Positions 2,724 to 60,490 of a stretch of 64,000 nucleotides of DNA are shown here, piece after piece. Both the position numbers and the translations under genes were made by a program. The stretch lies in contig NZ_CP007033.1 in the NCBI RefSeq assembly GCF_000512895.1, forward strand, positions 1,971,001 to 2,035,000. The letters are read 5' to 3'. The stretch is from Dehalobacter restrictus DSM 9455 (GTDB lineage Bacteria > Bacillota > Desulfitobacteriia > Desulfitobacteriales > Syntrophobotulaceae). Below the pieces are notes generated by a model. The model was given only the letters and a program-made list of their open reading frames with translations. It was not told the origin of the DNA and made no database searches. Position 1 is the stretch's first letter; every line of letters starts with the position of its first letter.

Positions 2724-3017
2724 TTACTTCAAAGAATTACAAATGTAATAGGAAGGATGTAAAAGCAGCCACAACTCTACAATGAATTGATAACCATGAT
2801 TTCTGCATTCAATGGATTTCCCTTTTCGCATAATCGTCGTTACGTCAGCCAGCACATTTTCTTTCTCTATGGGACCTTTAATCCAGGTCTGGGCATCTCC
2901 GAGCATATAGTATGCACCTTTTTTTGCATGATAGATTCTGTGTAAGACATGTGCACCATTTTCTCTTCTGTAAAGAACAATGTCTCCTCGTTTTAGTTGT
3001 CTGAGCGAAACTGCCTC
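2724..3017 (-). pseudogene. 5'-truncated S26-type signal peptidase-like gene
   Basis: An open frame of about 97 codons without a plausible start reads RQLKRGDIVLYRRENGAHV, then HRIYHAKKGAYYMLGDAQTW. This matches the intact peptidase gene at 5822-6331 nearly residue by residue (LRRGDIVLYVRQDGTHVLHR, YYMFGDAQTWIEGP). The part carrying the catalytic serine (GLSMYPLL in the intact copy) is missing. The break at about 3017 abuts a kinase remnant on the opposite strand, so this looks like the scar of a deletion or inversion in a duplicated RiPP cassette. It cannot encode an active peptidase. Confidence 0.8.
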
Positions 3018-3019
3018 GA

Positions 3020-3233
3020 TGATTTATCTTCGCGGTTCCTTCGGGTATCGGAAAAACGACGCATATACAGCTCTGGCAAGATCACTTCGATGTGCGGATC
3101 TTAGACAGAGATGTCAGTGCATACCGCATGATTAATGGATACTGCACAAGAACTATCAAACATCGTGGATATTTACCTTTTAAAATGCCGCCCGAACATT
3201 GAGGCTGTCAAAATTGTGCAAAAAACAATTTGA
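3020..3233 (+). pseudogene. HprK-like kinase remnant with internal deletion
   Basis: The plus strand reads FAVPSGIGKTTHIQLWQDHF, a Walker A region matching the two intact kinases nearby (FTAPSGTGKSTQAQLW and FPAPSDTGKTTHTLLW). A frame change near 3150-3160 then leads into SNIVDIYLLKCRPNIEAVKI and a stop, which matches the extreme C-termini of those kinases (YLLQCRPDQEAVELV, YLLNCLPNQESVELV). Roughly 100 central codons and the N-terminal half are gone. It is a decayed third copy of the kinase and shows that this RiPP island has been duplicated and rearranged. Confidence 0.8.
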
Positions 3234-3299: not shown

Positions 3300-4394
3300 T
3301 TAATATACTCTTTGTGCAACCTTCAGGATGTTTCCGGTATTAGGAGAAACATAGTCAGTATCGCATCCTAAGCCAAAATAAAAGTCCCCATTCAGTTCCT
3401 CAAATGATCTGGCAAAGGTATCGGTATTGAATCTAAATACCTCATTCCAATTTTCAAGATCACTCGATTTGTAAATGATATTGGTGTAATTTTTGGATGC
3501 GGTCTTGATAAAAGTTAAGACGTAAATTGAAGAATCTCTATTCAGAATATCTGCCGGAACCGCCGAAATCTCAGGGAAAATAATTTTTCTTGATTTATCC
3601 AACGAAATGGCAGCATACATCGAATTCGGCTTCCAATTCGAAGCGATCCTGTTTTGACAAATAAATACGAGCTGATTATGAAATACAATGTTCTTTTTGA
3701 GGTAGTAACCATACCGAAGGTCTATTCCAGGTGCAAAATATTTTGAGTAAAGTTGTATTTGCGTATTATCACCATCTATCTCCACAAATCTGGCGTAGTT
3801 CCCACTGTTTCCTGCAAGCTCCGCTGGAGATAAAAAAAGCATTCTTCCTCCGGCATAGAGCTTTCCACCCAATTCAAATAACGATATTCCCCAATTTCCT
3901 GTAAACAGCCAGCTTGATGCATTGCCCGGGACTTGGCTTTGCCATGAAACCCCCATATCTTCTGATACTAAGACCTCTCCCCAACATGTTCTTGTTGTAC
4001 CTGTTACCGCATAAAGTTTACCATGATAATAAGCGATATCAAAAACATGAACTGCCTGAGGAACCGTTCTGTATTTTATCCAGCTATTATTACTTCCTAT
4101 GGCATAAATATTTCCAAAATTCCAGTCGTCTCTGGCGTCTATCCCTGGAATGAATAGTTTACCGTTAAGCACTCTGAATACGTTTATTTCTTCTTCATCC
4201 ACAGTAAAATGCGTCACAAATTTGCTTGTTGCAGGGTCAAAATAAATAACTGGAATTGGGCCTGAGCTTGTATTAAAATCTCCATGCCCCAGATATATAT
4301 GCCCGTTAAAGACTTGCATATCCCAAATATTTTTTGCAAAGGTTGATTTTGTTAACGGACTGCCCAATATTTGGACATTACTCGTAACATCCAT
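3300..4394 (-). CDS. Hypothetical beta-propeller / sialidase-fold-like protein
   Basis: A 364-residue protein that I do not recognise by family. It is rich in repeating short beta-strand units with aromatic-glycine turns: VFNGHIYLGHGDF, VLNGKLFIPGID, YHGKLYAVTGT, ELGGKLYAGGRM and ELNGDFYFGLGC, spaced about 45-60 residues, which is the pattern of a six- or seven-bladed propeller. One Asp-box-like piece (SEDMGVSWQS) is present, as in sialidases and BNR-repeat proteins. There is no signal peptide and no membrane segment. It stands alone on the minus strand between the RiPP remnants and the first precursor gene. It could be a cell-surface or phage-tail-type protein, but nothing in the sequence settles this. 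Confidence 0.5.
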   Translation of the reverse strand: MDVTSNVQILGSPLTKSTFAKNIWDMQVFNGHIYLGHGDFNTSSGPIPVIYFDPATSKFVTHFTVDEEEINVFRVLNGKLFIPGIDARDDWNFGNIYAIGSNNSWIKYRTVPQAVHVFDIAYYHGKLYAVTGTTRTCWGEVLVSEDMGVSWQSQVPGNASSWLFTGNWGISLFELGGKLYAGGRMLFLSPAELAGNSGNYARFVEIDGDNTQIQLYSKYFAPGIDLRYGYYLKKNIVFHNQLVFICQNRIASNWKPNSMYAAISLDKSRKIIFPEISAVPADILNRDSSIYVLTFIKTASKNYTNIIYKSSDLENWNEVFRFNTDTFARSFEELNGDFYFGLGCDTDYVSPNTGNILKVAQRVY

Positions 4395-4733: not shown

Positions 4734-4901
4734 ATGAAAAAAAACTATATCAAACCAGAAGGCTGGGTAACTTCATTAAGACCGGAAGAAAGATTTGCCG
4801 GAGGTTCCTTTTCCACGGAAGACTCAAAGAAATTAGCAGAAGATACTTTTGGTAAGATTTTATCTGCGATTGGTCTTGGCGACGGTATCAAAGGTTTTTA
4901 A
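4734..4901 (+). CDS. Putative RiPP precursor peptide 1 (55 residues)
   Basis: A short gene with ribosome binding site GAGGGTGAT four bases before the ATG. The peptide begins MKKNYIKPEGWVTSLRPEER, continues with a Gly/Ser patch (FAGGSFSTEDSKK) and ends in a Gly-rich hydrophobic tail (ILSAIGLGDGIKGF). The start MKK-x-Y-x-KP is shared with the second small peptide at 7231-7407 and resembles leader regions bound by PqqD-like RRE domains. It is followed by a terminator-like hairpin and then an HprK-like kinase on the same strand, the arrangement seen in kinase-containing RiPP clusters. It has no cysteines, so a thioether product is excluded for this peptide. The core sequence and modification are unknown. 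Confidence 0.6.
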   Translation: MKKNYIKPEGWVTSLRPEERFAGGSFSTEDSKKLAEDTFGKILSAIGLGDGIKGF

Positions 4902-4926
4902 TATCCGTATTGTAAAGTAATATTTT

Positions 4927-4953
4927 AAGAGCCTGACAGAATGCCAGGCTCTT
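4927..4953 (+). terminator. Hairpin between precursor 1 and kinase (attenuator)
   Basis: Nine-base-pair stem AAGAGCCTG / CAGGCTCTT with a nine-base loop, followed by TGTGTTATTT. Partial termination here would give more precursor transcript than kinase transcript, a common arrangement in RiPP operons. Confidence 0.6.
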
Positions 4954-4983
4954 GTGTTATTTATAGGATCGGAGATTTGCTTG

Positions 4984-5850
4984 ATGCGCTATGATATCGC
5001 GGGATTGATTATCGACTTTCAAACTGATTTAAAAAACATGCCCGAAGAATTTACGTCTTACGTATCTGAATCTGATGGAGCTGCGGACTGCGAGGTGGAT
5101 TTCCTGCAATGTTCCGAGGTGTCCCCTCCTCAGGGAAGGTTTCTATATGAAGACGGTTTAAAATGGTATACTCACGATGAAAATGAAGATGGATTTTCCG
5201 TTTATCTTTCCACCCCGCTCTACCCTTTCGGGCCTGTCTGCAAATTAACGGCTGCAGAGGACTGGCGGCAGGTATCTATCGAATACATCAAGGATCTCTC
5301 CGACCAGCAGCTTGCAGTTTTTAAGTTTTTCAGCAATATTGTGATCCGCAATCTGATTCTACTCCATCAAGGGATTATTCTCCATGCTTCCGCGATCAAG
5401 TGGCAGGATAAAGGAATTGCATTTACCGCTCCGTCCGGAACCGGAAAATCGACCCAAGCTCAGCTGTGGGAAGCCTATAGGGGGGCTGCTGTCATCAATG
5501 ATGACACCCCGATATTGAAACGATCTGCGGAAAAAATCACCATCCACGGAACTCCCTGGTGTGGTTCGAGTCATAAACACCTGAATACAAGCGCCCCGCT
5601 AAATACTATCATTGTCCTAGAGCAAAGTAATAAAAATAGTCTGCATCGACTCCAGGAACCGGAATTATCATCCTGCCTGCTGCCCCGTTTTCTTTTGCCT
5701 TACCATGATCAGCGTTTAATGGATCTGGCGCTCGGTCACATCGCCCGCATCATTGCTTCCACCCCTATTTACCTTTTACAATGCCGGCCGGATCAAGAAG
5801 CCGTCGAACTTGTGCATAAAGTTATTTTGAATGAATTGGACGCAGGATAA
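4984..5850 (+). CDS. HprK-like P-loop kinase, RiPP-associated (copy 1)
   Basis: A 288-residue protein with a Walker A loop at about residues 150-157 (APSGTGKST) and a following LPWCGSSH-type conserved stretch (GTPWCGSS). The N-terminal 130 residues are a variable domain, and the end is YLLQCRPDQEAVELVHKVI. This is the HPr-kinase/PEPCK-like fold group found in lasso-peptide (PadeK-type) and SynChlorMet-type peptide cassettes, where such enzymes are thought to phosphorylate peptides or act as tailoring factors. The ATG at 4984 is chosen because GGAG lies ten bases upstream. It follows precursor 1 and converges with the S26 peptidase gene, the two 3' ends overlapping by 29 bases. A near full-length paralogue lies on the other strand at 6313-7176. 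Confidence 0.7.
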   Translation: MRYDIAGLIIDFQTDLKNMPEEFTSYVSESDGAADCEVDFLQCSEVSPPQGRFLYEDGLKWYTHDENEDGFSVYLSTPLYPFGPVCKLTAAEDWRQVSIEYIKDLSDQQLAVFKFFSNIVIRNLILLHQGIILHASAIKWQDKGIAFTAPSGTGKSTQAQLWEAYRGAAVINDDTPILKRSAEKITIHGTPWCGSSHKHLNTSAPLNTIIVLEQSNKNSLHRLQEPELSSCLLPRFLLPYHDQRLMDLALGHIARIIASTPIYLLQCRPDQEAVELVHKVILNELDAG

Positions 5851-6331
5851 TATTCAATATTTTAACAATAATCGGTATACGATCAATGATTTTTAGGATC
5901 AAGGGTCTAGCAGGACGCATTACCATCCATATCTGGGATATAAACCGATATCCAAACGAATTGCATTCAATTGTTTTTCCCTTTCTGATCACTGAAATAG
6001 CAACTCCCAGAACATTATCTTGATTTATTGGACCTTCAATCCATGTCTGAGCATCACCAAACATATAGTAATTATTTAGGTTAACATGATGGATCCGATG
6101 CAAGACATGGGTCCCATCTTGTCGGACATATAGGACAATATCACCTCGTCGAAGTTTCTTACCTGTGACATCCGCCAGAAGCACTTCGTCCCTTCTCCCT
6201 ACAAGCAAAGGATACATACTTAACCCTTCAATAGGCAATCTCAGCAGATGCCCTTCAGCTAAAATAGGCAGCAACGCATTTGACCATACAATAGCCGGAA
6301 TAAAATTTCGGTTTATTGTTTTTTCAGGCAT
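5822..6331 (-). CDS. S26/S24-type signal peptidase-like protein (SipW-like), RiPP-associated
   Basis: About 169 residues. The catalytic serine motif IEGLSMYPLL is near residue 40, followed by RRGDIVLY and HVLHRIHH. The second motif carries histidine rather than the lysine of classical bacterial signal peptidase I, as in SipW/ER-type enzymes. A hydrophobic C-terminal stretch (LILKIIDRIPIIVKILNIIL) may anchor it to the membrane. It overlaps the end of kinase copy 2 by 19 bases and is translated from ATG 6331, although an upstream in-frame ATG at 6385 exists. Its place at the end of a precursor-modifying operon suggests it removes the leader peptide, an inference from context. A truncated paralogue lies at 2724-3017. 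Confidence 0.75.
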   Translation of the reverse strand: MPEKTINRNFIPAIVWSNALLPILAEGHLLRLPIEGLSMYPLLVGRRDEVLLADVTGKKLRRGDIVLYVRQDGTHVLHRIHHVNLNNYYMFGDAQTWIEGPINQDNVLGVAISVIRKGKTIECNSFGYRFISQIWMVMRPARPLILKIIDRIPIIVKILNIILRPIHSK

Positions 6332-7176
6332 TCCTTCACCAACTCTACTGATTCTTGGTTTGGCAGACAATTCAATAGATAACAACTAACTTTTCCTACA
6401 ATTCTTTGAATCGTATCTAAGTATTGATCCATCAATCTTTGGTTCCAAGGCAAAAGAAAACATCTTGCGGTAAGCCGCAGAAATGCTTCCTGAAAATCAA
6501 GCTTTATAATACTGTTCTCTTGAGACTGCTGAAGAAATACGATTGCCCCAAGAGGGACGCTGGCATTGATAAATTGACCCGATGTACCGCACCATGGAAG
6601 GCCATAGACTACCGGAGTATCATTATTAATCCTACAGGCAGTAACATCCCCATCCAAAACCGGTGTTTGATACATTTGCTGCCATAAGAGGGTATGTGTA
6701 GTTTTTCCGGTATCTGAAGGCGCAGGGAATACAATCCCCTTATCCTGCCAGATAATAGTGCTGGAATGAATAATTAAACCATTTTTTTGTGCCAATGCTC
6801 CAACTAGTAAATCGCGTAAAGATGCTAAAATTCCATTTTTAACTTTTTGAATAATCTCTTCATTATTTGGATTATTATACTCCGAATTAATATATATTTT
6901 ATACGTTGACCAATCCTTAGATGTTATGCTGTAAGCTTTTCTATCTCCGCTAATATTTAAGATATTTCCGTTTATTTCATATATTTTATTCTTAGGTGTT
7001 TCCATGATCAATTGAGCCCCTTCAACAGAAATATCCTGATGTTCCTGAAAAATAACCTGGCATTCGATATCAGGTTCTCCCTCTTTAGTCGTAAATAATT
7101 TAAAGTTTTCATGTATTGCCCAATCAGGAGCCAATATATTTATTATTAAATCTCCAATAGAGAACTTTGGCATCAT
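6313..7176 (-). CDS. HprK-like P-loop kinase, RiPP-associated (copy 2)
   Basis: A 287-residue paralogue of the kinase at 4984-5850, same length and layout. The Walker A is APSDTGKTT near residue 150, with Asp in place of the usual Gly at the third loop position, followed by GLPWCGTSGQ and the C-terminal YLLNCLPNQESVELVKECL. It sits directly downstream of precursor 2 in the operon PqqD - radical SAM - precursor - kinase - peptidase, after a terminator-like hairpin. The presumed role is ATP-dependent tailoring of the peptide, known only by analogy to kinases in lasso-peptide and SynChlorMet cassettes. Two ATG codons are adjacent at 7176 and 7173, and AGGGGA lies three to six bases upstream. Confidence 0.7.
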   Translation of the reverse strand: MMPKFSIGDLIINILAPDWAIHENFKLFTTKEGEPDIECQVIFQEHQDISVEGAQLIMETPKNKIYEINGNILNISGDRKAYSITSKDWSTYKIYINSEYNNPNNEEIIQKVKNGILASLRDLLVGALAQKNGLIIHSSTIIWQDKGIVFPAPSDTGKTTHTLLWQQMYQTPVLDGDVTACRINNDTPVVYGLPWCGTSGQFINASVPLGAIVFLQQSQENSIIKLDFQEAFLRLTARCFLLPWNQRLMDQYLDTIQRIVGKVSCYLLNCLPNQESVELVKECLKKQ

Positions 7177-7190
7177 TTATCCCCTTGTAA

Positions 7191-7214
7191 TTAAAAAAGA
7201 CACACAATGTGTGC
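7191..7214 (-). terminator. Hairpin between precursor 2 and kinase 2
   Basis: On the minus strand a CACAC-rich / GTGTG-rich hairpin is followed by TCTTTTTTAATT. Its position directly after the precursor and before the kinase repeats the layout seen after precursor 1, so it probably acts as an attenuator. Confidence 0.55.
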
Positions 7215-7230
7215 CTTTTTTGTTATTGAT

Positions 7231-7407
7231 TTATTTTGGTCCTTTTTGTTCACCAAATGCAGCATAAGATGAACCAGTTGGAGTCCAATCCGTAACATTG
7301 TCAATGCAGCCTACACCAGCATTTCCCTTGTTACAATCAGCAAATACACTTTCAAACTGAGCATACTCCTTGGCATCAAGCATTGGCTTAGTATATTCTT
7401 TTTTCAT
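7231..7407 (-). CDS. Putative radical-SAM RiPP precursor peptide 2 (58 residues)
   Basis: The ATG at 7407 has GAGGTG six bases upstream. An ATG three codons earlier has no ribosome binding site. The peptide starts MKKEYTKPMLDAKEYAQFE, the same leader pattern as precursor 1, and carries a core-like second half with two cysteines eight residues apart (DCNKGNAGVGCIDN) followed by DWTPTGSSYAAFGEQKGPK. It sits immediately downstream of the radical SAM gene, so the cysteines, Trp or Tyr are likely crosslinking sites (sactipeptide, ranthipeptide or C-C bond type). Which bond is formed cannot be told. A decapeptide-scale search of related genomes for the conserved C-x8-C core would define the family. 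Confidence 0.7.
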   Translation of the reverse strand: MKKEYTKPMLDAKEYAQFESVFADCNKGNAGVGCIDNVTDWTPTGSSYAAFGEQKGPK

Positions 7408-7474
7408 AGAAAACACCTCACAAAAAACATATAACTAAATTCAAACTATCATATAATCCAAATTCTGTCTAGTC

Positions 7475-8602
7475 CTATTTTAATTTTTTACGTCGTTTCG
7501 ACCGCTCTTGTGCAATTTCACAAATGTATGATGAAATTTTGTAAAAAGAACCTGACTCTGATTGAAGAATTGCTGGACAGTTGGAGCATTGTCCATTTAC
7601 ATATTCACACTTCATACATTCCTGTGGGAGTTTTATCTTCTCAAACAAAGTTGGCAACCGGTCCCAAGCAGATTGAAACCCCTCTTTAAAAGGTAATGTG
7701 TAAGGACTGGTGAACGAACCACATGGAAGCATTTTCCCATCCCAGGTAATCCAGTACATTGATTTTGCTGCAAGACAAGTAAGAATTTGAGGAGGAAGAT
7801 GAGAATGCTCTAGTGCATGAATATAATTATCAGTATCCATATTTTTTTCCAAAGCAAATTCTGTTTCACTATTTAGAGATCGATAATATTCCCCGTTCTC
7901 TTCAGCTAAATCAAATAACTGAGCTGGTGTTAGTCTGCAGTTTTCTGCATCGGAACAAGCTCCACGCACAGCCTTATTCACTTTTGTATTAATAGCAAAG
8001 CGTCTGGTGTAACGGTTAGCTATCTTACGAAGGGCATTTAATTCATGCCGATTGTCCTTAATAAAAGTTGTACGAACTTCGAGAACCGTTGGGATATCTG
8101 CTAACATTTCCAGACCGCTTATTGTATTGTAAAATGCTTCCCGGTTGCCGCAAATAGACTGATATGTTTCGGGAGTAGCCCCGTACAATGTTACATTTGT
8201 CGCAGTAGGTGGATATTTCTTAAAAAGTTTAAGTATTTCACTATTGATAAGTGTTGCATTGGTATTTAACGTAATAATAAATCCCATCATGGTCAACGCT
8301 GAATATATCTCTGCAAAATCAGGGCGCAATAGTGGTTCCCCGCCGGTAATCAATAGGTTTAGTGTTCCAGCTTGAATGGCTTCTTTTCCAAGGGTAATCC
8401 ACTCATCAGCGGTCTTTTCCCTGCCGATAAGATCTATCTGCGCTTTATCCAAGCGTATATAGCACATTTTACACTTTAGATTACATCGAGCCGTTAATTC
8501 AAAAGTCCCACCCAAAGGTACATGTCTTTGGGCAGCATATCCTGCCAGGGTCATTTCCGAGCTTTCCCACTTCCGGGCAATCTCGTTATTATTATTCTCC
8601 AT
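7475..8602 (-). CDS. Radical SAM/SPASM-type peptide-modifying enzyme
   Basis: 375 residues. The radical SAM CxxxCxxC motif is CNLKCKMCY near residues 41-49, and an LLITGGEPLLRPDF stretch follows. The C-terminal region has the cysteine-rich layout of SPASM/twitch domains (DGKMLPCGSF, then CMKCEYVNGQCSNCP) that hold one or two auxiliary 4Fe-4S clusters. Such enzymes install thioether or carbon-carbon crosslinks in RiPP precursors. It lies three bases after the PqqD-like gene and just before precursor 2, so the three form one unit. The protein is cytoplasmic and oxygen-sensitive by family. Its exact RiPP class is unassigned. Confidence 0.85.
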   Translation of the reverse strand: MENNNNEIARKWESSEMTLAGYAAQRHVPLGGTFELTARCNLKCKMCYIRLDKAQIDLIGREKTADEWITLGKEAIQAGTLNLLITGGEPLLRPDFAEIYSALTMMGFIITLNTNATLINSEILKLFKKYPPTATNVTLYGATPETYQSICGNREAFYNTISGLEMLADIPTVLEVRTTFIKDNRHELNALRKIANRYTRRFAINTKVNKAVRGACSDAENCRLTPAQLFDLAEENGEYYRSLNSETEFALEKNMDTDNYIHALEHSHLPPQILTCLAAKSMYWITWDGKMLPCGSFTSPYTLPFKEGFQSAWDRLPTLFEKIKLPQECMKCEYVNGQCSNCPAILQSESGSFYKISSYICEIAQERSKRRKKLK

Positions 8603-8604
8603 AT

Positions 8605-8871
8605 TTATTCCTCCAGCACTCCGCTTTCACGGGCACTCTGAATAAAATCATCCAGGTCCGCTTTGGCTGTGACCTCATCGATTTCATATTCATCCAAAAT
8701 AGAAGTCAACAATTGATTGTAAGATATATCTTCGGTCAGACACCGCCAAATAAAATTCCCTGTATCGTTAAGCGTCATAATCCCCTTGAATTCAATAACA
8801 CGTTCCCCGACTGGAACGACAATATAACAATCGGCAATTTCTCTGACCAAATACCCTTCTTTGATTTTCAT
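8605..8871 (-). CDS. PqqD-like RiPP recognition element protein
   Basis: An 88-residue protein of the PqqD fold: VRVIEFKGIMTLNDTGNFIW-type beta-strand then helix, here ERVIEFKGIMTLNDTGNFIW, followed by a helical end (LDDFIQSARESGVLEE). PqqD-like proteins bind the leader of the precursor peptide and present it to the radical SAM enzyme. The ATG at 8871 is preferred over one at 8895 because AGAGGA lies eight bases before it. The stop is three bases before the radical SAM start, indicating translational coupling. It probably recognises the Y-x-KP leader shared by both small peptides. Confidence 0.8.
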   Translation of the reverse strand: MKIKEGYLVREIADCYIVVPVGERVIEFKGIMTLNDTGNFIWRCLTEDISYNQLLTSILDEYEIDEVTAKADLDDFIQSARESGVLEE

Positions 8872-10347: not shown

Positions 10348-11769
10348 TTACATTGCTACAGTTCTTCCAGTTTCAACCCAGTTTGTTCCATCGGTACAGA
10401 CGAAATTAACCACAAAAACTTTCGATGTGGTTGCACCAGTTGCTAATGTTCCCGTTGTCTTGAAGTTTGTCCCCCAGGTTAAGGTATATGATGTTGTCCC
10501 GCTAGTGGTAATAATAAAGCTGCATCTTTTCCCGGCGTAGCCACCTGATGCATTAAAGGTACACGTGCCGCCAGGAGTTATTGTGAAAACCTCGGAATCG
10601 GTCATTGTTACAGCAATTGTTCCGGAAGTTGCTAGAGCTATCGGGCTATTGCCTTTGTATTGGCTAAAATAAACAGAATTATTAAGTTTCTTCAGTACGG
10701 GGTTTCCTTGTGTGTTTACCTGGAAATAATCGCTTCCAATAAATAAATCTGAGCTATAGAAATCGACATAAATTCCTGCGCCAGCAATTTGAGTACTAGC
10801 ACCATAGAATCGCCTAAGCGTAGGCGATCCTGTTTTAGTATTGTTTCGCATTAGTACTGATTTGATAAATATTTTGGCATCGGTATCAATTTTAATAAAA
10901 CTGTAATCGGAAAAATTTGAGATATCAAAGGTATTAAATACAGCAGTTATAACATCGAAACAGATTGTGCCGCCACCTACATAGATCATTCCGTTATAAT
11001 CAACATTAGCAACATAACCTTCAAAATGGAGGCTGTTAAATTTTAGATTGTCGCAGACTACAGTTACCAATCCTTGGTCATAATAACCATGTTCTATATT
11101 AAGCTGACCTATGATACCATCAGTATACCCCCTAAGATAAACACCACAATCAGCAGATAGTTTTGTTCCAGCGTTGTAATCGTCCCAGTTTACCAGATAC
11201 ACATTTGAAATATAGCAACCGGTATTTCCAAGACCTCCAAGCCATAATCCTGAATGATTAAATCTGGTTATTCTAAGATCACGGATTGTCGTACTAAAAA
11301 CATTGTAGTTGTTACTATCACTGTTAAATATTCCGTCTGAGTTATTTTCAAGGTAGAGCCGTTCGATTACTGAACCATCCTGAACAGTTGATCCAACTTC
11401 AAGACCAGTAGCTAAAGGTGATGATGGTAGACTACTATGTCCAATATATAAATCAGCAATATGGCAAACGCCGCCGATATAAACAACTGGTTTTGTTAAA
11501 GTATCTTGAATAATTTTAGAAGTCAACCTGTCTGCGCCAAGTACGGTTTTTCCTTCAAAATTTAAAGTATCTGTAATTTTAAAAGTTGTGTTAGCTGGCA
11601 TAAATAGACAATCGTAATTTGTAAGTATTGTAGCTAGTACAGCATAATCATCTGTTACGCCATCGCCGATTGCCGCAGTTAAGGGAGATGGTGGATATAA
11701 AGGGTTGATGCCACGACTATTTGAAATAGATGATGCCTCGTTTGCCTTTGCAAGCGAAATAATATTCAT
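10348..11769 (-). CDS. Tail-spike-like protein with pectate-lyase-type beta-helix
   Basis: 473 residues. After about 20 residues a typical phage tail-spike/pectate-lyase-3 opening appears (AAIGDGVTDDYAVLATIL), followed by a long run of beta-helix-like repeats and a C-terminal beta-rich domain ending GTNWVETGRTVAM, as in many structural tail proteins. Such proteins bind or cleave surface polysaccharide. No signal peptide is present. It follows the gene at 11772-12335 by two bases, in the same direction, and forms a two-gene unit. No other phage structural genes surround it, so this is probably a prophage or tailocin remnant or an independent acquisition. The pair is bracketed by the two lipoprotein copies. 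Confidence 0.65.
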   Translation of the reverse strand: MNIISLAKANEASSISNSRGINPLYPPSPLTAAIGDGVTDDYAVLATILTNYDCLFMPANTTFKITDTLNFEGKTVLGADRLTSKIIQDTLTKPVVYIGGVCHIADLYIGHSSLPSSPLATGLEVGSTVQDGSVIERLYLENNSDGIFNSDSNNYNVFSTTIRDLRITRFNHSGLWLGGLGNTGCYISNVYLVNWDDYNAGTKLSADCGVYLRGYTDGIIGQLNIEHGYYDQGLVTVVCDNLKFNSLHFEGYVANVDYNGMIYVGGGTICFDVITAVFNTFDISNFSDYSFIKIDTDAKIFIKSVLMRNNTKTGSPTLRRFYGASTQIAGAGIYVDFYSSDLFIGSDYFQVNTQGNPVLKKLNNSVYFSQYKGNSPIALATSGTIAVTMTDSEVFTITPGGTCTFNASGGYAGKRCSFIITTSGTTSYTLTWGTNFKTTGTLATGATTSKVFVVNFVCTDGTNWVETGRTVAM

Positions 11770-11771
11770 TT

Positions 11772-12335
11772 TTATGCCACCACCCTTCCTTTAGCGGTTA
11801 CATTTCCACCTGCTACAGCCTGTAAATCCACGAAGACGGAGGATAAACCAGTAATATCAAACTGCCAGATTTCGCCCGTTCCTGTCGTACTAGAACCAGT
11901 GGACAGATCAGATAATCTTACACCCATAATCGCCCTGTCTGTTCCGCTTGGGCCTCTTCCGATGAAGGCAATGGTTCTGGATGTTGATGTGCCGTATATC
12001 TCAACCGTTAAAGTCTTGTATCCACCGACCGTTAGAATTGTTCCGTCTGCCGCTACTATTGCAGCATTGTGGAAGGTTACATCGTTCGCTAAACTCCCAA
12101 TTATCGAAACCCCATTATTTCCAGAGTCTATTCCGACTTTCCCAATTATATTTGACCCCGTTGGAAGTGAATCAGTTACCATAACTGGCATAGGATTAAG
12201 GTACCAAGATGAACCGTCAAAAATGAATACTTTCTTTGTATCAAGTTCGATAAATTTCGAGCCTGTTGTAACGTTAGTAGGTTTTGTGTCAGAAGATAAT
12301 CCTAGAAATTCCCTGGTAATCTGTGTGATTGACAT
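11772..12335 (-). CDS. Phage tail-associated hypothetical protein
   Basis: 187 residues, opening MSITQITREFLGLSSDTKPT and containing KFIELDTKKVFIFDGSSWYL, a short beta motif common in phage head-tail and tail-fibre accessory proteins that describe a printed value on a fibre domain. The rest is beta-rich with Gly/Thr/Ser runs (LSDLSTGSSTTGTGEIWQFD). It lies two bases upstream of the beta-helix tail-spike-like gene and is probably co-translated with it. It has no signal peptide or membrane segment. I infer a tail-fibre or baseplate role from composition and neighbour only. Confidence 0.5.
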   Translation of the reverse strand: MSITQITREFLGLSSDTKPTNVTTGSKFIELDTKKVFIFDGSSWYLNPMPVMVTDSLPTGSNIIGKVGIDSGNNGVSIIGSLANDVTFHNAAIVAADGTILTVGGYKTLTVEIYGTSTSRTIAFIGRGPSGTDRAIMGVRLSDLSTGSSTTGTGEIWQFDITGLSSVFVDLQAVAGGNVTAKGRVVA

Positions 12336-12658
12336 TTGAATTTACGCCTCTCTTTCTTTTTTAAAGTTAGAAAATGATACTTTTTTTAATTTGAACTTCC
12401 AATAAGATAATCCCCCCCTTGTTTTTTGGTGACGACTATAGGTTAAGTATAATTTCTTCAGCCTTAAATAATCGGCAAAAACTCGGCAAAAATTCGGAAA
12501 TATTTAAGCCCCCTAATGATAGAGGGCATTTGGATGCAAACTGGGTTTTTGCTGGTTTTCTAATGATCATAGGAATTATGAAGCAAATAATACAGGTAAT
12601 AGAACTTTTTCCCTTCATCAGACCGGTGCTTCCGGAGATCAATCCGAAAATTTCTATG

Positions 12659-12900
12659 CTGGTGTCTGCCATGCAAAAATACCAGAAAACAATTCAGGAA
12701 TCTTATGTGGAAAAATCAATCGATGTTCAATTGATTAAAGTTGACCGCCAATGGTATATTATCTGGATTACCGGGAACTTTCTCCGGGTATCACAGAAAA
12801 TGGGAATTGGGTATACGAATTGCCAGCAGACGCTGAAAGTTATAAGCTTTACGTTAAAAAATCAGGAACCAAGGAGCTTTATGAGATACGATTAAAATAA
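12659..12900 (+). pseudogene. Internally deleted duplicate of the DUF4352 lipoprotein gene
   Basis: Bases 12659-12760 match 9488-9590 of the lipoprotein gene (SAMQKYQKTIQESYVEKSI against SAMQKHKATIQESYVEKSI). They then jump directly to sequence matching 10002-10140, coding the C-terminus. About 410 bases of the parent are missing, and the join puts the second half out of frame with the first. The junction lies at a short TAT-rich identity. No intact start or lipobox region is recognisable before it. It is a decayed copy of a once-duplicated gene. Confidence 0.85.
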
Positions 12901-12995
12901 AACATTCTCATAAGGACAAGCTGAACCAGGGTGACGTTACCTCAAAAAAATTAAAACGCAGCTGTGTGTATTTCAGGCTGCGTCCCTACTTGTTG

Positions 12996-13337
12996 TTATT
13001 CAAATCTATTCAGCAGATCTTCAAGCTGTCTCATTAAATCCGGAATTTCTTTTTGCGATAAATTCCAAATAAGCTCCATTCTTAATTCACCATATCCATG
13101 TGCTACGATGTTTCTAAGATCAATAATCTTTCTCCACTGAATATCCTTGTACTCCGTCCACAACTCTCTTGTCAGGGCATTAGCATGCTCACCTATATTA
13201 AGAAGCGACATTGCCGTTGCCTTCTGGAAAATATCGCTTTTGAGAAACCCTTTTTCACCGATTTCATTTGTATACCGTATAACATCTTTGCATTCGGATA
13301 TGATTTTTTTCAGTAGTTGAATATCCCTATGCTTCAT
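12996..13337 (-). CDS. hepT: HepT-like toxin (HEPN RNase, type VII toxin-antitoxin)
   Basis: A 113-residue all-helical protein with the HEPN RNase signature R-x4-H-x-Y, here RNIVAHGY near residue 80. HepT proteins cleave RNA and are silenced by oligo-AMPylation carried out by the partner nucleotidyltransferase MntA. The gene overlaps the end of the MntA-like gene by 11 bases in the usual antitoxin-first order. The length fits the family. The pair sits in an accessory stretch of duplicated and phage-like sequence, consistent with horizontal transfer. Confidence 0.85.
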   Translation of the reverse strand: MKHRDIQLLKKIISECKDVIRYTNEIGEKGFLKSDIFQKATAMSLLNIGEHANALTRELWTEYKDIQWRKIIDLRNIVAHGYGELRMELIWNLSQKEIPDLMRQLEDLLNRFE

Positions 13338-24191: not shown

Positions 24192-24491
24192 TCAGCAGCA
24201 TCCCCCGCTGCTGCCTCCGGAACAGTCGCAGCTTGGTTCTGTCCCTGTAAGCCACCCTGTGATAACGGCTGAAGCGCAGCCCACACCGGACTTCACATCG
24301 ATCGCCTCAAACGGACAATTGCGGGCGCAAGCGCCGCATTCCATGCAGAGATCTATATCCAGTATCTCTGCTTTTTTGCATTTTAAACCCAGGACCTGAT
24401 GCGGACAGACCTCGAGACATCTTCCGCAGCCGGTGCATTTTTCCGTCTTAAGCGTAAGCGTCGAAACATTTTTCAAATAGCGGTGCTTCAT
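24192..24491 (-). CDS. hgcB: Mercury-methylation ferredoxin HgcB
   Basis: 99 residues. Two 4Fe-4S motifs CTGCGRCLEVCP and CMECGACARNCP fit the HgcB ferredoxin, and the chain ends in a cysteine-rich tail SCDCSGGSSGGCC with a vicinal Cys pair, a feature of HgcB thought to bind or deliver Hg(II). It lies 15 bases downstream of hgcA on the same strand, the standard hgcA-hgcB order. HgcB reduces the corrinoid of HgcA to Co(I) so that it can accept a methyl group. Length matches the family (about 95 residues). Confidence 0.92.
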   Translation of the reverse strand: MKHRYLKNVSTLTLKTEKCTGCGRCLEVCPHQVLGLKCKKAEILDIDLCMECGACARNCPFEAIDVKSGVGCASAVITGWLTGTEPSCDCSGGSSGGCC

Positions 24492-24506: not shown

Positions 24507-25664
24507 TCACATCCTGAATAAGGCGTTCAGTAAAATGAGCGTAACTCCAACGCCGATGGTAACCACAATAGTCGGAACAGCGGTTTTCATCTCCTTCATA
24601 ACGCCGGAAAATGAAGTATACGTTGATGCTCCTGTAAAATTCATGGCATAGAATGCAGAAATTGACGGAAGAACGAGCAGATACCCTAATGCCCTCAGCC
24701 AGCTGTAGGAAAGCTCTCCCGGCCAGCCGTTCAGCACATTCACTGCTGCCGCCCAAAGCAAACCCAGGAGCCATCCCTTCCAGGCAAACGCTTTTCCAGG
24801 AATCCACGGCAACAAAACCGGGGTCAGGACACAGCCCACAATCAGCGCCCCGGCATAGGCATAAAAGTCGGTGATTCCAAAAGCTCCTGGCCGGATCAGA
24901 TTCAAGATAAATAAAATGCCTAAAATCATCAAGGACATCTTAAATGTACCGGTAAGTTCCATCGGCGTAAGTACCAACCGGTCATACGCTGTAAACTTCA
25001 CGGTTCGCATTTCGGCTGTCGCTTTCCTTCCGGAAGCGACAAATTCACGGATATCCCAAGCTCTGACCGGACCATACACGACGTTGAAACCGGTTTGTTT
25101 GTGGACTTGATGCGCACTTACCCCAGGAGCGCCGAGCTGCGGCAGAAGCAATGTCCTGTGGGACACAATCTGGGAAAGTCTGGTCTTCCCGATCCGACTG
25201 CTGAGCTCTGCCGTTCCGAATGTCCCTTTGCCTGCCGCGCACCAGACATTAATGCCTTTGGTGTCAAGCACCAGGATCCAGGCCTGGAGTCCGGCCAGCT
25301 CCTTACGAAGGGCATCAAAGGTCATTTTGTAATTAGCCGTTACCAGAACCTCGGAATGTTCATCCGGATTGCCGACAGCATAAAGTCCGGGATTGATTTT
25401 ATAATTCATCCGGTTGATGCCCCAACGGGCTTTCCATCCGCCCAGGATATCCAAAGCTGTTAAGTTCGTCGAAATCTGAGGCACCAGCCCTGCTGGTGTT
25501 TTTATTTCACCTGTAATCCAGCCGCATTCCGTGTCATAAACGGTTACAGACCCTGCTAAACTGTCATCCCCGCAGCAGCATGACTGCGGGTCAAATATCT
25601 TAAGCTCTGCCTTGTTATTAGCATTTTGATTATTCTGATTCGGATCAAAACTTATTTCTCCCAA
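24507..25664 (-). CDS. hgcA: Mercury-methylating corrinoid protein HgcA
   Basis: 385 residues. The cap-helix motif is exact, NVWCAAGKGTFGT, with the cysteine that acts as lower axial ligand to cobalt. The N-terminal domain (about 40-230) binds the corrinoid, and the C-terminal third has about five membrane segments (MSLMILGILFILNLI and following). HgcA transfers a methyl group from methylcorrinoid to Hg(II). Translation most likely starts at TTG 25664: GGAGG lies seven bases before it, and the upstream TTG at 25706 lacks a site. The N-terminus carries a CCCG cluster (SCCCGDD) not needed for catalysis in known homologues. It is followed by hgcB. A pair of structured elements lies upstream. Confidence 0.93.
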   Translation of the reverse strand: MGEISFDPNQNNQNANNKAELKIFDPQSCCCGDDSLAGSVTVYDTECGWITGEIKTPAGLVPQISTNLTALDILGGWKARWGINRMNYKINPGLYAVGNPDEHSEVLVTANYKMTFDALRKELAGLQAWILVLDTKGINVWCAAGKGTFGTAELSSRIGKTRLSQIVSHRTLLLPQLGAPGVSAHQVHKQTGFNVVYGPVRAWDIREFVASGRKATAEMRTVKFTAYDRLVLTPMELTGTFKMSLMILGILFILNLIRPGAFGITDFYAYAGALIVGCVLTPVLLPWIPGKAFAWKGWLLGLLWAAAVNVLNGWPGELSYSWLRALGYLLVLPSISAFYAMNFTGASTYTSFSGVMKEMKTAVPTIVVTIGVGVTLILLNALFRM

Positions 25665-25784
25665 ATATAACACCTCCAAAAGGTTTGGCAGGATAAAAGA
25701 AGCCAATTCCTAACAAGCATATGATTCGTATAGCGTTCAATTCTCTGCTCAAATAATTCATGCAAGGTTGATTACCCCAAATTA

Positions 25785-58855: not shown

Positions 58856-60396
58856 CTATTTCTTAAAGATGCCTTCCGGTATTCCGTCAAAGAACATATC
58901 CGTTCTCATCCACCAAGGCACGTCTTTATAAGTCGCCCACGTCGGAGCATTATAATCGTCCTTTGACGGACTCGGATAAAAGCTCTTTTGCCCCCATAGC
59001 ATGATTTGATGTGCTATTCCGGTTCGATCTCTTACAGCCAATTCACGGCTATACTTATGCAACGCATTGTCAAATCTGCGCCACGGACACACAGAATAAC
59101 AAACACCACACATATGTCTGACGGGAACAGAAGCATAATAGTTCTGACATTTTTCTCTGTCTGACATCCAACGTACCACGCCATCGTCCTGCAGTTCGGG
59201 TTGTCCGCTTGGAATAGAGCCACCAGGACATTTTTCCGCGCAAATACCACACTTGTCGCAGAAATCCTTTAATCCCATGTTGATTGGCCGATCCGGCTCC
59301 ATAGGAAGATTGGTCAGTACAACAGCCAATTTTACCGAGGGTCCAAATTCAGGTGTAACCAATATGCCGGGCCTTCCCATCTCACCTAATCCGGCATCAA
59401 TTGCTAACGGTGTGGGTAAAAGTTCATCCCACCCTATAATTGGGTTTCCGTTATATCTGGCAGGATACCCCAAAGCTTTAATAAAACCCGTAAGTCTTGC
59501 AGCAGCAAGACCTGACCGCGTATATGCCTCAAATGGACTGTAAAAAAGCGGTGTTGCTTCTATTAAATTAGGTTCATGGGGTACAGCAATGACAATTGCA
59601 TATTGCCACCAATCCGGGATGTCTATGGGACCACCTCTTACCCCTCTTGGCGTTATTGGATCGATTCCTACCGCAGCTAAAATTGGAAGCATCCTAGGGT
59701 CCACGCCACCACCCCAGCCCAAGATCCACCTCGGATTGACTTTCGTAATACCCACTAAAGTCCCACCAAAGAGGCCTGCCATTTTTTAATAAGTTTGCTT
59801 GTTTCTTTTGGATCCTTAACTTTTAATGGTTCTTTGATTACACCCTTAAAGTCCCACTCTTTTGGGTCCCCTACTAAGGGAGCAAGCATGCTGGTCCAAG
59901 CCTTGTTCCATGCAGTTGCAATCCCCCACATATCCTTATTCATTTTTTTCTCTTCTTCAGCGAGGTTCGGAAGAAGTTTGGTGAACCATGCTCTATCGCT
60001 TTCCAGTTTATCAGGATGCTTTGCGTAATATTCCTTCAATCTGGGCATTAAATTTTCTTCGCCTTTTTTGCTTAATAAGGCATCTTCCTGATAGTACAGA
60101 CGACGAAAGGTTGGCGAATCAACGTCTTGATCCACACGATTGACTGGTCCTTTAATCTCATAACCAGGCTTATCTACTCTAAATGGCTCACGATTAAAAT
60201 ATACTTCCCCTTGTTCTGATTCCCATCCCATCATCGTATCAATGGACTTTGCATCACCAAAGCTGCTGGCAGCAATTCCCCCGAGTGCCGCTACCCCTCC
60301 AGCAAGCCCGGCAAATTTAAATAAAGAACGTCTGCTGATCTGAACAGATTTAATCTTGTCTGCTACCGAGCCATTTTCTAACTGGTTATTTTCCAT
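58856..60396 (-). pseudogene. rdhA: Reductive dehalogenase catalytic subunit RdhA, split by a -1 frameshift
   Basis: Two overlapping frames add to about 512 residues, the normal RdhA length. The first carries the Tat signal SRRSLFKFAG and a normal N-terminal domain up to LIKKWQASLVGL and a stop at about 59719. The second begins within that overlap (LIKK then MAGLFGGTLVGITKVNPRW) and includes both iron-sulfur motifs, CDKCGICAEKCPG and HMCGVCYSVCPW, and the corrinoid-binding core. The frames join perfectly if the A6 tract at 59782-59787 (minus strand) had seven A's. A start at ATG 60396 follows GGAG by eight bases. This is a mutation, an assembly error or slippage site; sequence cannot decide. 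Confidence 0.9.
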
Positions 60397-60490
60397 CCTG
60401 TTCACTCCATTCCAATTTGTGAAAATAAAAAAGATAATGTTAAAAGTCCCTTAGATGCTAAACATTTGCGCTATGAAGTTCTGGTTTTTT

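Follow-up and report, generated by a model that had tools for sequence, protein, structure and literature searches.

A conserved RiPP cassette with two precursor peptides and two HprK-like kinases in Dehalobacter restrictus is probably a radical SAM variant of the linear polyphosphorylated peptide family

In a 64,000-nucleotide stretch of the single-contig genome of Dehalobacter restrictus DSM 9455 (NZ_CP007033.1, bases 1971001-2035000 of 2,943,336; hereafter the window) we analyzed a seven-gene island devoted to ribosomally synthesized and post-translationally modified peptides (RiPPs), which encodes two small precursors (P1 and P2), two HprK-like kinases (HprK1 and HprK2), a PqqD-family protein, a radical S-adenosylmethionine (SAM) enzyme with a SPASM region and a signal-peptidase-like protein of the S26 family. 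The island is probably a radical SAM version of the cassette for Linear Polyphosphorylated Peptides (LPP) that makes a Cys-crosslinked peptide, joined by a second LPP-like precursor-kinase pair. We regard it as a real and conserved variant of this recently described (2026) RiPP family and, as far as the open-access literature goes, an apparently undescribed one. On the plus strand P1 is followed by a hairpin and HprK1, and on the minus strand, from position 8871 downward, lie PqqD, the radical SAM gene, P2, a hairpin, HprK2 and the S26 peptidase gene (Table 1). A first-pass annotation of the letters alone had already noted a Cys-less P1, a P2 with a C-x8-C core, the common start MKK-x-Y-x-KP and the hairpin and HprK-like kinase behind each precursor, and all of these were borne out.

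The LPP system was described from the lpp cluster of Paenibacillus alginolyticus, where the main account lists an SpI-like peptidase, a discrete RiPP recognition element (RRE), an HprK kinase, an NTP transferase and an MsbA-like ABC transporter near capsule loci (PMC13381572, Nat Commun 2026). For LppA, LppB, LppK and LppS that account reports leader binding by the RRE that depends on Tyr and Pro (LppB N33 and D70 fix the leader Pro and Tyr), kinase-dependent phosphorylation of core Ser3, which takes up multiple phosphates, and RRE-dependent cleavage by the SpI-like (S26B) protease, with a leader of the form YxxPxVLxHQxIxFETxxS and the search motif Px9Fx[T/A] (PMC13381572).

To see whether the gene set recurs, we used a radical SAM alignment of three rows to scan 84,980 species, each represented by one genome; the scan returned 220 relatives, the best 80 of which were examined. 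Forty-six loci (L017-L062), nearly all from Clostridia, belong to one radical SAM family, and 34 loci of other radical SAM proteins (L063-L096) served as controls. Within 3 kb of the related radical SAM genes we found HprK in 44 of 46 loci (the two misses, L058 and L059, run into a contig end) and PqqD in 42 of 46; within 11 kb, S26 was present in 31, an ABC gene in 25 and NTP_transf_5 in 23 of the 46. By contrast, the 34 control loci contained within 11 kb no HprK, one PqqD, one S26, two ABC and no NTP_transf_5 genes. The combination of PqqD, radical SAM, HprK and S26, for which the first-pass annotation had proposed genome mining, is a conserved set around these radical SAM genes, and the annotation's view that HprK-like kinases are an uncommon partner of radical SAM modification does not hold, the more so as the NCBIfam SynChlorMet models (ScmC, ScmE and ScmF) already indicate cassettes with a kinase-like protein and radical SAM enzymes. 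The cassette is an accessory, patchy trait: a close radical SAM relative occurs in 7 of 73 genomes and 5 of 22 genera of the host's order and in none of the four other genomes searched in its genus, and no relatives of the protein were found on viral contigs.

Precursors with a YxxP leader were recognized in 41 of the 46 loci, the precursor regions of L058 and L059 being cut by the contig end. For comparison, a Y..P near the N-terminus is found in 87 of 3,658 open reading frames (ORFs) of 40-130 amino acids in those loci, precursors included. A table of 47 peptides, filtered for a YxxP-like motif first and then completed by inspection, follows a common frame, Y1-x-x-P4 to A18 (in group A, position 19 is A or T), behind which a Cys or Ser follows soon in most; L033 and L038 are near-duplicates and L034 and L036 come from one metagenome-assembled genome, the kinase tree omits L038, and the tables omit L054, which repeats L016. 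All 40 tabulated precursors adjacent to a radical SAM gene carry at least two Cys after residue 20, in most with the first Cys near the end of the leader. Two candidate acceptor positions stand out: 20 of the 23 peptides in group D/E end in Ser, where their own composition would predict 1.7 (p <= 5e-5, 20,000 draws, relatedness not removed), and 13 of the 15 peptides without Cys, with one Cys or from group B have a Ser no more than five residues behind A18, the exceptions being the two from L004. In Peptococcaceae UBA6116 and Desulfosporosinus sp. HMP52, the precursors next to the radical SAM gene bear Cys, and those with few or no Cys have a kinase of their own beside them, so that the earlier proposal of different modifications for the two peptides is probably right. 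In Clostridium polyendosporum (L024:13353-17365) a lasso-type cluster directly adjoins the radical SAM-HprK cassette; it holds PqqD, HprK, a transglutaminase-like ORF, an asparagine-synthetase-like ORF and a Ser-ending precursor, assigned by eye except for PqqD and HprK.

The leader start is specific to the island's two precursors: the pattern ATGAARAARNNNTAYNNNAARCCN has exactly two sites in the whole genome, at P1 and P2, and none when read backwards, and the looser MK-x-Y-x-KP adds a precursor of the sister cassette described below, a further precursor at genome position 1951578 (-) and one unrelated site. The shared leader proposed earlier stands for MKK-x-Y-x-KP and E19, the shared stretch being short. 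Both precursors have a good Shine-Dalgarno sequence just 5' of the gene. The P1-HprK1 spacer folds at -27.3 kcal/mol (z -4.43) and the P2-HprK2 spacer at -14.1 kcal/mol (z -4.11), with none of 200 shuffles as stable in either case. Among 17 spacers folded, a hairpin of this kind occupies the corresponding position in the Thermincola loci L017 (z -3.0) and L061 (z -1.6) and in L016 (-3.0), L042 (-4.0) and L004 (-2.2), and was not supported (z > -1) in L056, L023, L024, L025, L026, L044, L021 and L028. Representative precursors matched no Pfam or NCBIfam family, and a promoter scan was uninformative (21 found, 15.7 expected).

Judged by its sequence, the PqqD protein (Pfam E 9.6e-15) is certain to be an RRE. 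A profile of the family finds in the PDB the lasso B1 proteins TbiB1 and TfuB1, together with the paeninodin-type and LPP RREs of PMC13381572, and in the RRE alignment D72 is present in 16 of 16 rows and N35 in 7, Ser taking its place in the other 9. The S26 protein belongs to the Ser-His type, all 28 aligned rows keeping G-x-S-M-x-P, HR and GD unchanged; its match to NCBIfam TIGR02228 (signal-peptidase I-like, E 7.5e-8) lies under the cut-off, and SEC11 provides both the nearest solved sequences and the best fold match (model pLDDT, the predicted local distance difference test, 87.7). Both kinases fall below the HPr-kinase cut-offs (for HprK1, Pfam Hpr_kinase_C E 0.16 and NCBIfam HprK_rel_B 5.3e-6), and HprK2 gave no Pfam Hpr_kinase_C match. 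A profile search brought up HPr kinases at E 1.7e-4, and an AlphaFold2 model of HprK2 (pLDDT 95.6) matches phosphoenolpyruvate (PEP) carboxykinases and HPr kinase/phosphorylases; as modeled, HprK2 is folded as an HPr kinase/PEP carboxykinase-type protein. We considered that HprK2 might be a dead enzyme, since its DGD and SDTGKTT motifs looked degenerate next to those of HprK1, and rejected this because most relatives have NGD and varied P-loops. A second idea, that the NDD/NxD motif of the kinase is tied to the place of the acceptor Ser, was also dropped: across 35 rows, all 10 NDD kinases go with precursors lacking a terminal Ser/Thr and 21 of the 25 others with precursors that have one, and this is no independent evidence because the motif changed once on the tree, giving a single independent pair.

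The radical SAM enzyme (Pfam E 7e-20) retains C47, C276, C294, C329, C332, C339 and C342 in 43 of 43 rows and C40, C44 and C361 in at least 90% of them. SPASM enzymes encoded beside Cys precursors commonly form a thioether. Alternatively, the enzyme could make something else (a C-C or C-O link or an epimerization), or the Cys residues could serve metal binding or disulfides. Such an outcome would fit the mixed best full-length NCBIfam matches, heme b synthase AhbD at 88 bits and PapB at 62 bits, neither over its cut-off; we nevertheless think it unlikely, since at least two Cys follow the leader in every tabulated precursor adjacent to a radical SAM gene and none in P1, and the first Cys mostly lies where the leader ends.

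We propose the following course for P2. The RRE would bind Y5-x-x-P8 in the leader, after which the radical SAM/SPASM enzyme would act on the Cys core, most likely forming a thioether from C25 and/or C34; HprK2 would phosphorylate a Ser/Thr of P2; the S26B protease would receive the leader bound to the RRE and cut near F18-E19-S20/A23; and an ABC exporter encoded elsewhere would export the product. P1, which has no Cys, is probably not a radical SAM substrate and would be phosphorylated by HprK1, with S25 as the best candidate (the third residue after A22 in A22-G-G-S25, fitting the position of phospho-Ser in LPP, S3 of LppA), before an S26B protease releases it. The hairpins may let more precursor than kinase be made. 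This course is drawn from the genes and their order, the catalytic and RRE-contact residues, their conservation and the hairpins; from these we infer that P1 and P2 are the substrates of these enzymes, that a thioether is formed, where and in what order the steps take place, and what the hairpins and the product do. In a broader and more tentative form, to which we give somewhat less than an even chance, the relatives would constitute a Clostridia-wide RiPP class in which a radical SAM/SPASM enzyme cross-links, and an HprK-type kinase phosphorylates, one and the same peptide, phosphorylation licensing the signal-peptidase-like cleavage, the acceptor having moved by lineage from behind the leader to a C-terminal Ser, and some hosts, including this one, running a Cys-less phosphopeptide alongside.

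Several points weigh against the interpretation of the island as a radical SAM form of the LPP cassette. First, the radical SAM protein stays below all curated maturase cut-offs (PapB 62.3 of 340 bits, StsB 55.6 of 625). Second, P2 lacks both acceptor sites of its relatives, the Ser just behind the leader and the terminal Ser/Thr, so that the case for its phosphorylation is the weaker one; its Thermincola relatives end in Thr and P2 ends in Lys. Third, P1 and P2 fail the LPP motif Px9Fx[T/A]: both contain YxxP, P2 reads Px9F-E-S and P1 has no F there. Fourth, L018, L060 and L062 have the enzymes and no recognized YxxP precursor. Fifth, the ABC and NTP transferase genes are not in the island; both are found elsewhere in the genome (one NTP_transf_5 at 1957059-1957814 and one ABC gene in the sister cassette) and in many relatives. 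Finally, debris and a kinase broken by an insertion sequence (IS) show that the region is decaying.

The island is, by sequence comparison, a composite of two lineages, because the P2 set is Thermincola-like and the P1 leader and HprK1 are nearest to Peptococcaceae UBA2264 (L026). P2, HprK2, S26, the radical SAM protein and PqqD all have their nearest kin in Thermincola ferriacetica, with identities to L017 of 77% (PqqD), 76% (radical SAM), 59% (HprK2) and 54% (S26), against 52, 49, 32 and 39%, respectively, for the next best in the same alignments. The P1 leader agrees with that of L026 at 12 of 18 positions (57% over residues 1-28, E 0.0011), the only other P1 match among 82 genomes searched across the class lying in G068 (E 0.0011), on the contig stretch corresponding to L026. 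In the kinase tree HprK1 pairs with the L026 kinase (support 100/99), and HprK1 and HprK2 fall into different supported clades; an assignment of P1 to the K' precursor-kinase pairs of UBA6116 and HMP52 was rejected on this ground. Furthermore, the observation that only one PqqD, one radical SAM and one S26 gene are present is correct for the island and not for the genome, which holds a second full set 32 kb upstream: the sister cassette L004, with PqqD, radical SAM, two Cys precursors, HprK, S26, VanZ and ABC. There, a one-Cys precursor (13579-13415 -) is split from a truncated kinase (10716-10168 -), apparently its own, by an IS21-type pair at 10793-13040. At L006:5939-8615 we noted a third PqqD (8250-8615 -) and another radical SAM gene (5939-7144 -) with a transposase ORF between them and no recognized precursor.

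These findings bear on the earlier suggestion of one recognition and processing module serving both peptides: a RiPP cassette with a leader-binding RRE is indeed present, whereas the sharing has become doubtful in view of the mixed ancestry and of the second RRE/S26/ABC set. In a shared module the single PqqD, S26B and, for P2, radical SAM proteins would serve P1 and P2, each with its private kinase. The common leader start and E19, the Tyr-type contacts of the RRE and the role of YxxP as the main binding determinant reported for LppB (PMC13381572) all suit such an arrangement, as do UBA6116 and HMP52, where one RRE/S26/ABC set is flanked by Cys-less or one-Cys precursors with their kinase on one side and by Cys precursors with a second kinase on the other. 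Yet the leader of P1 shares more identical positions with groups B, C and noC (mean 9.4, 10.2 and 10.8 of 18, noC including P1 itself; group K 7.3) than with group A of P2 (6.0 of 18, one gap allowed), the two kinases belong to separate clades and the RRE of the sister cassette goes with group B leaders, so we hold sharing to be a possibility well short of even. We judge it equally doubtful that P1 and HprK1 functionally belong to L004, whose one-Cys precursor lost its kinase to the IS element, the island then being a working P2 cassette with a transplanted pair. The severed precursor, the affinity of the P1 leader to group B/C leaders and the convergence of HprK1 on the S26 gene, with 3' ends that overlap by 29 bases as after a rearrangement, speak for this ownership, but HprK1 groups with L026 and apart from the K' kinases of UBA6116 and HMP52, and is therefore not a moved copy of the L004 K' kinase. 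On these sequence comparisons P1 might use the RRE of the window or that of the sister cassette, each being an outcome we would not bet on, and the remainder falls to promiscuity or to a P1 without function.

That the island is decaying and makes nothing is improbable. Its want of an exporter, the debris of another cassette at 2748-3227, the transposases and broken kinase of the sister cassette and the absence of a close radical SAM relative from the four congeners would be expected of a dying locus, whereas the seven genes all have uninterrupted reading frames and intact catalytic residues, and hairpins and start signals are retained. The S26 debris (-) and HprK debris (+) abut at 2748-3227; they are what is left of a further cassette and mark a recombination scar.

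Table 1. Features of the island and adjoining debris, in window positions
Feature	Position	Strand	Properties
Debris of further S26 gene	2748..3023	-	51% identity; spans query residues 69-160, without the catalytic Ser
Debris of further HprK gene	3020..3227	+	two out-of-frame pieces, 46% and 41% identity
Precursor P1	4734..4901	+	55 amino acids, MKKNYIKP start, no Cys; leader YIKPEGWVTSLRPEERFA, core GGSFSTEDS...; candidate phospho-Ser S25
Hairpin spacer P1/HprK1	4902..4983	+	folding compared with shuffles
HprK1, HprK/LppK-like kinase	4984..5850	+	P-loop APSGTGKST, NDD; pairs with L026 HprK in tree
S26B (SipW/SEC11-type) putative leader peptidase, LppS-like	5822..6385	-	likely start ATG at 6331; S56, H96 and D111 invariant
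HprK2, HprK/LppK-like kinase	6313..7176	-	P-loop APSDTGKTT, DGD; 59% identity to L017 HprK
Terminator-like hairpin spacer P2/HprK2	7177..7230	-	z -4.11; resembles a hairpin in the corresponding position of L017 and L061
Precursor P2	7407-7231	-	58 amino acids, MKKEYTKP start, C25-x8-C34; leader YTKPMLDAKEYAQFESVFA; relatives L017 and L061 keep leader and CxKGN..C
Radical SAM/SPASM maturase (putative)	7475..8602	-	C40/C44/C47; C276, C294, C329, C332, C339, C342, C361; 76% identity to L017 protein
PqqD-family RRE	8605..8871	-	N35 and D72 at the LppB N33/D70 positions; 77% identity to L017 PqqD; nearest structures TbiB1, TfuB1, PbaB1, LppB

By eye, the cassettes flank exopolysaccharide genes. Related propeller-like proteins, as read from sequence, adjoin both cassettes (window 3300-4394 - and L004:4333-6123 +), the L004 protein having a C-terminal Golvesin_C domain; a profile of them found no match in the other loci examined. 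Elsewhere in the window, an HgcA mercury-methylation corrinoid protein is encoded at 24507-25706 (-) (NCBIfam NF040863, 494.8 bits against a cut-off of 275), followed at 24192-24491 (-) by a ferredoxin-like ORF that resembles HgcB by eye. A reductive dehalogenase gene at 58856-60405 (-) is split into overlapping ORFs in different frames (60405-59755 and 59782-58856), the second piece reaching 146.7 bits in TIGR02486 (cut-off 160.35), and downstream of it lie an FMN-binding/ferredoxin membrane protein and a Crp-type regulator.

In the open-access literature we found a single paper on LPP, no report on HprK together with PqqD, with or without radical SAM, none joining HPr kinase, radical SAM and PqqD with a precursor peptide, none on radical SAM with a signal peptidase, an RRE and a kinase, no paper on SynChlorMet, one paper with HPr kinase, radical SAM and RiPP in which the kinase concerns lasso clusters, and for Dehalobacter restrictus with radical SAM and peptide only an unrelated one. 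The term radical SAM occurs nowhere in the text of PMC13381572; such clusters could be in its supplementary data. Among known systems, SynChlorMet shares a kinase-like protein with radical SAM/SPASM enzymes, and both kinases and the radical SAM protein match its models weakly (ScmC 23.3 of 125 bits, ScmE 66.5 of 400, ScmF 57.3 of 400), but it has two radical SAM models against one such protein here. Sactipeptide and ranthipeptide systems, with the maturases PapB, StsB and AlbA, likewise place a radical SAM/SPASM enzyme next to a Cys-bearing precursor; the island enzyme reaches none of their curated cut-offs and, to our knowledge, a kinase and an S26B protease are not part of those systems. Paeninodin-like lasso peptides with HprK have in common with the system described here the leader-RRE logic, the kinase, the NTP transferase, the ABC transporter and, in the lasso B1 proteins, the nearest solved RREs. 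They differ in that the leader here is of the Tyr and not the Trp type and that no lasso cyclase was seen in the stretches read; a lasso product was rejected because the leader peptidase (B2) domain PF13471 has no match in the whole genome.

The closest likeness is to LPP as described in the main account (PMC13381572): a discrete PqqD-type RRE with the N33/D70 contacts, a YxxP leader, an HprK-like kinase, an S26B (SpI/SipW-type) peptidase, an MsbA-like ABC transporter and an NTP transferase in the genome, an exopolysaccharide neighborhood and a patchy distribution in Bacillota. Unlike LPP, which is linear and has no primary cross-linking enzyme, the island adds a radical SAM/SPASM enzyme and Cys cores, its leaders lack HQxIxFET, the candidate phospho-sites are others and the relatives found here are mostly Clostridia. 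Directly downstream of the radical SAM cassette of L017 lies an LPP-like cassette without radical SAM, with the precursor YVKPMIINETEIQFETLVS, so both kinds coexist in Thermincola. The published motif Px9Fx[T/A] is present in 2 of 49 peptides, L035 and this L017 LPP control; used alone it would miss nearly all of these precursors, and this may be why the radical SAM branch went unnoticed. As a search signature we offer instead the combination of RRE, SPASM, HprK, S26B and a YxxP leader, a conserved cassette in which two RiPP chemistries, radical SAM cross-linking and phosphorylation, would be joined. If this reading is true, two-peptide islands would provide a natural test of RRE discrimination inside one genome, and the LPP family of 2026 would be a branch within a wider lasso-like leader system in which the core-modifying enzymes are exchanged.

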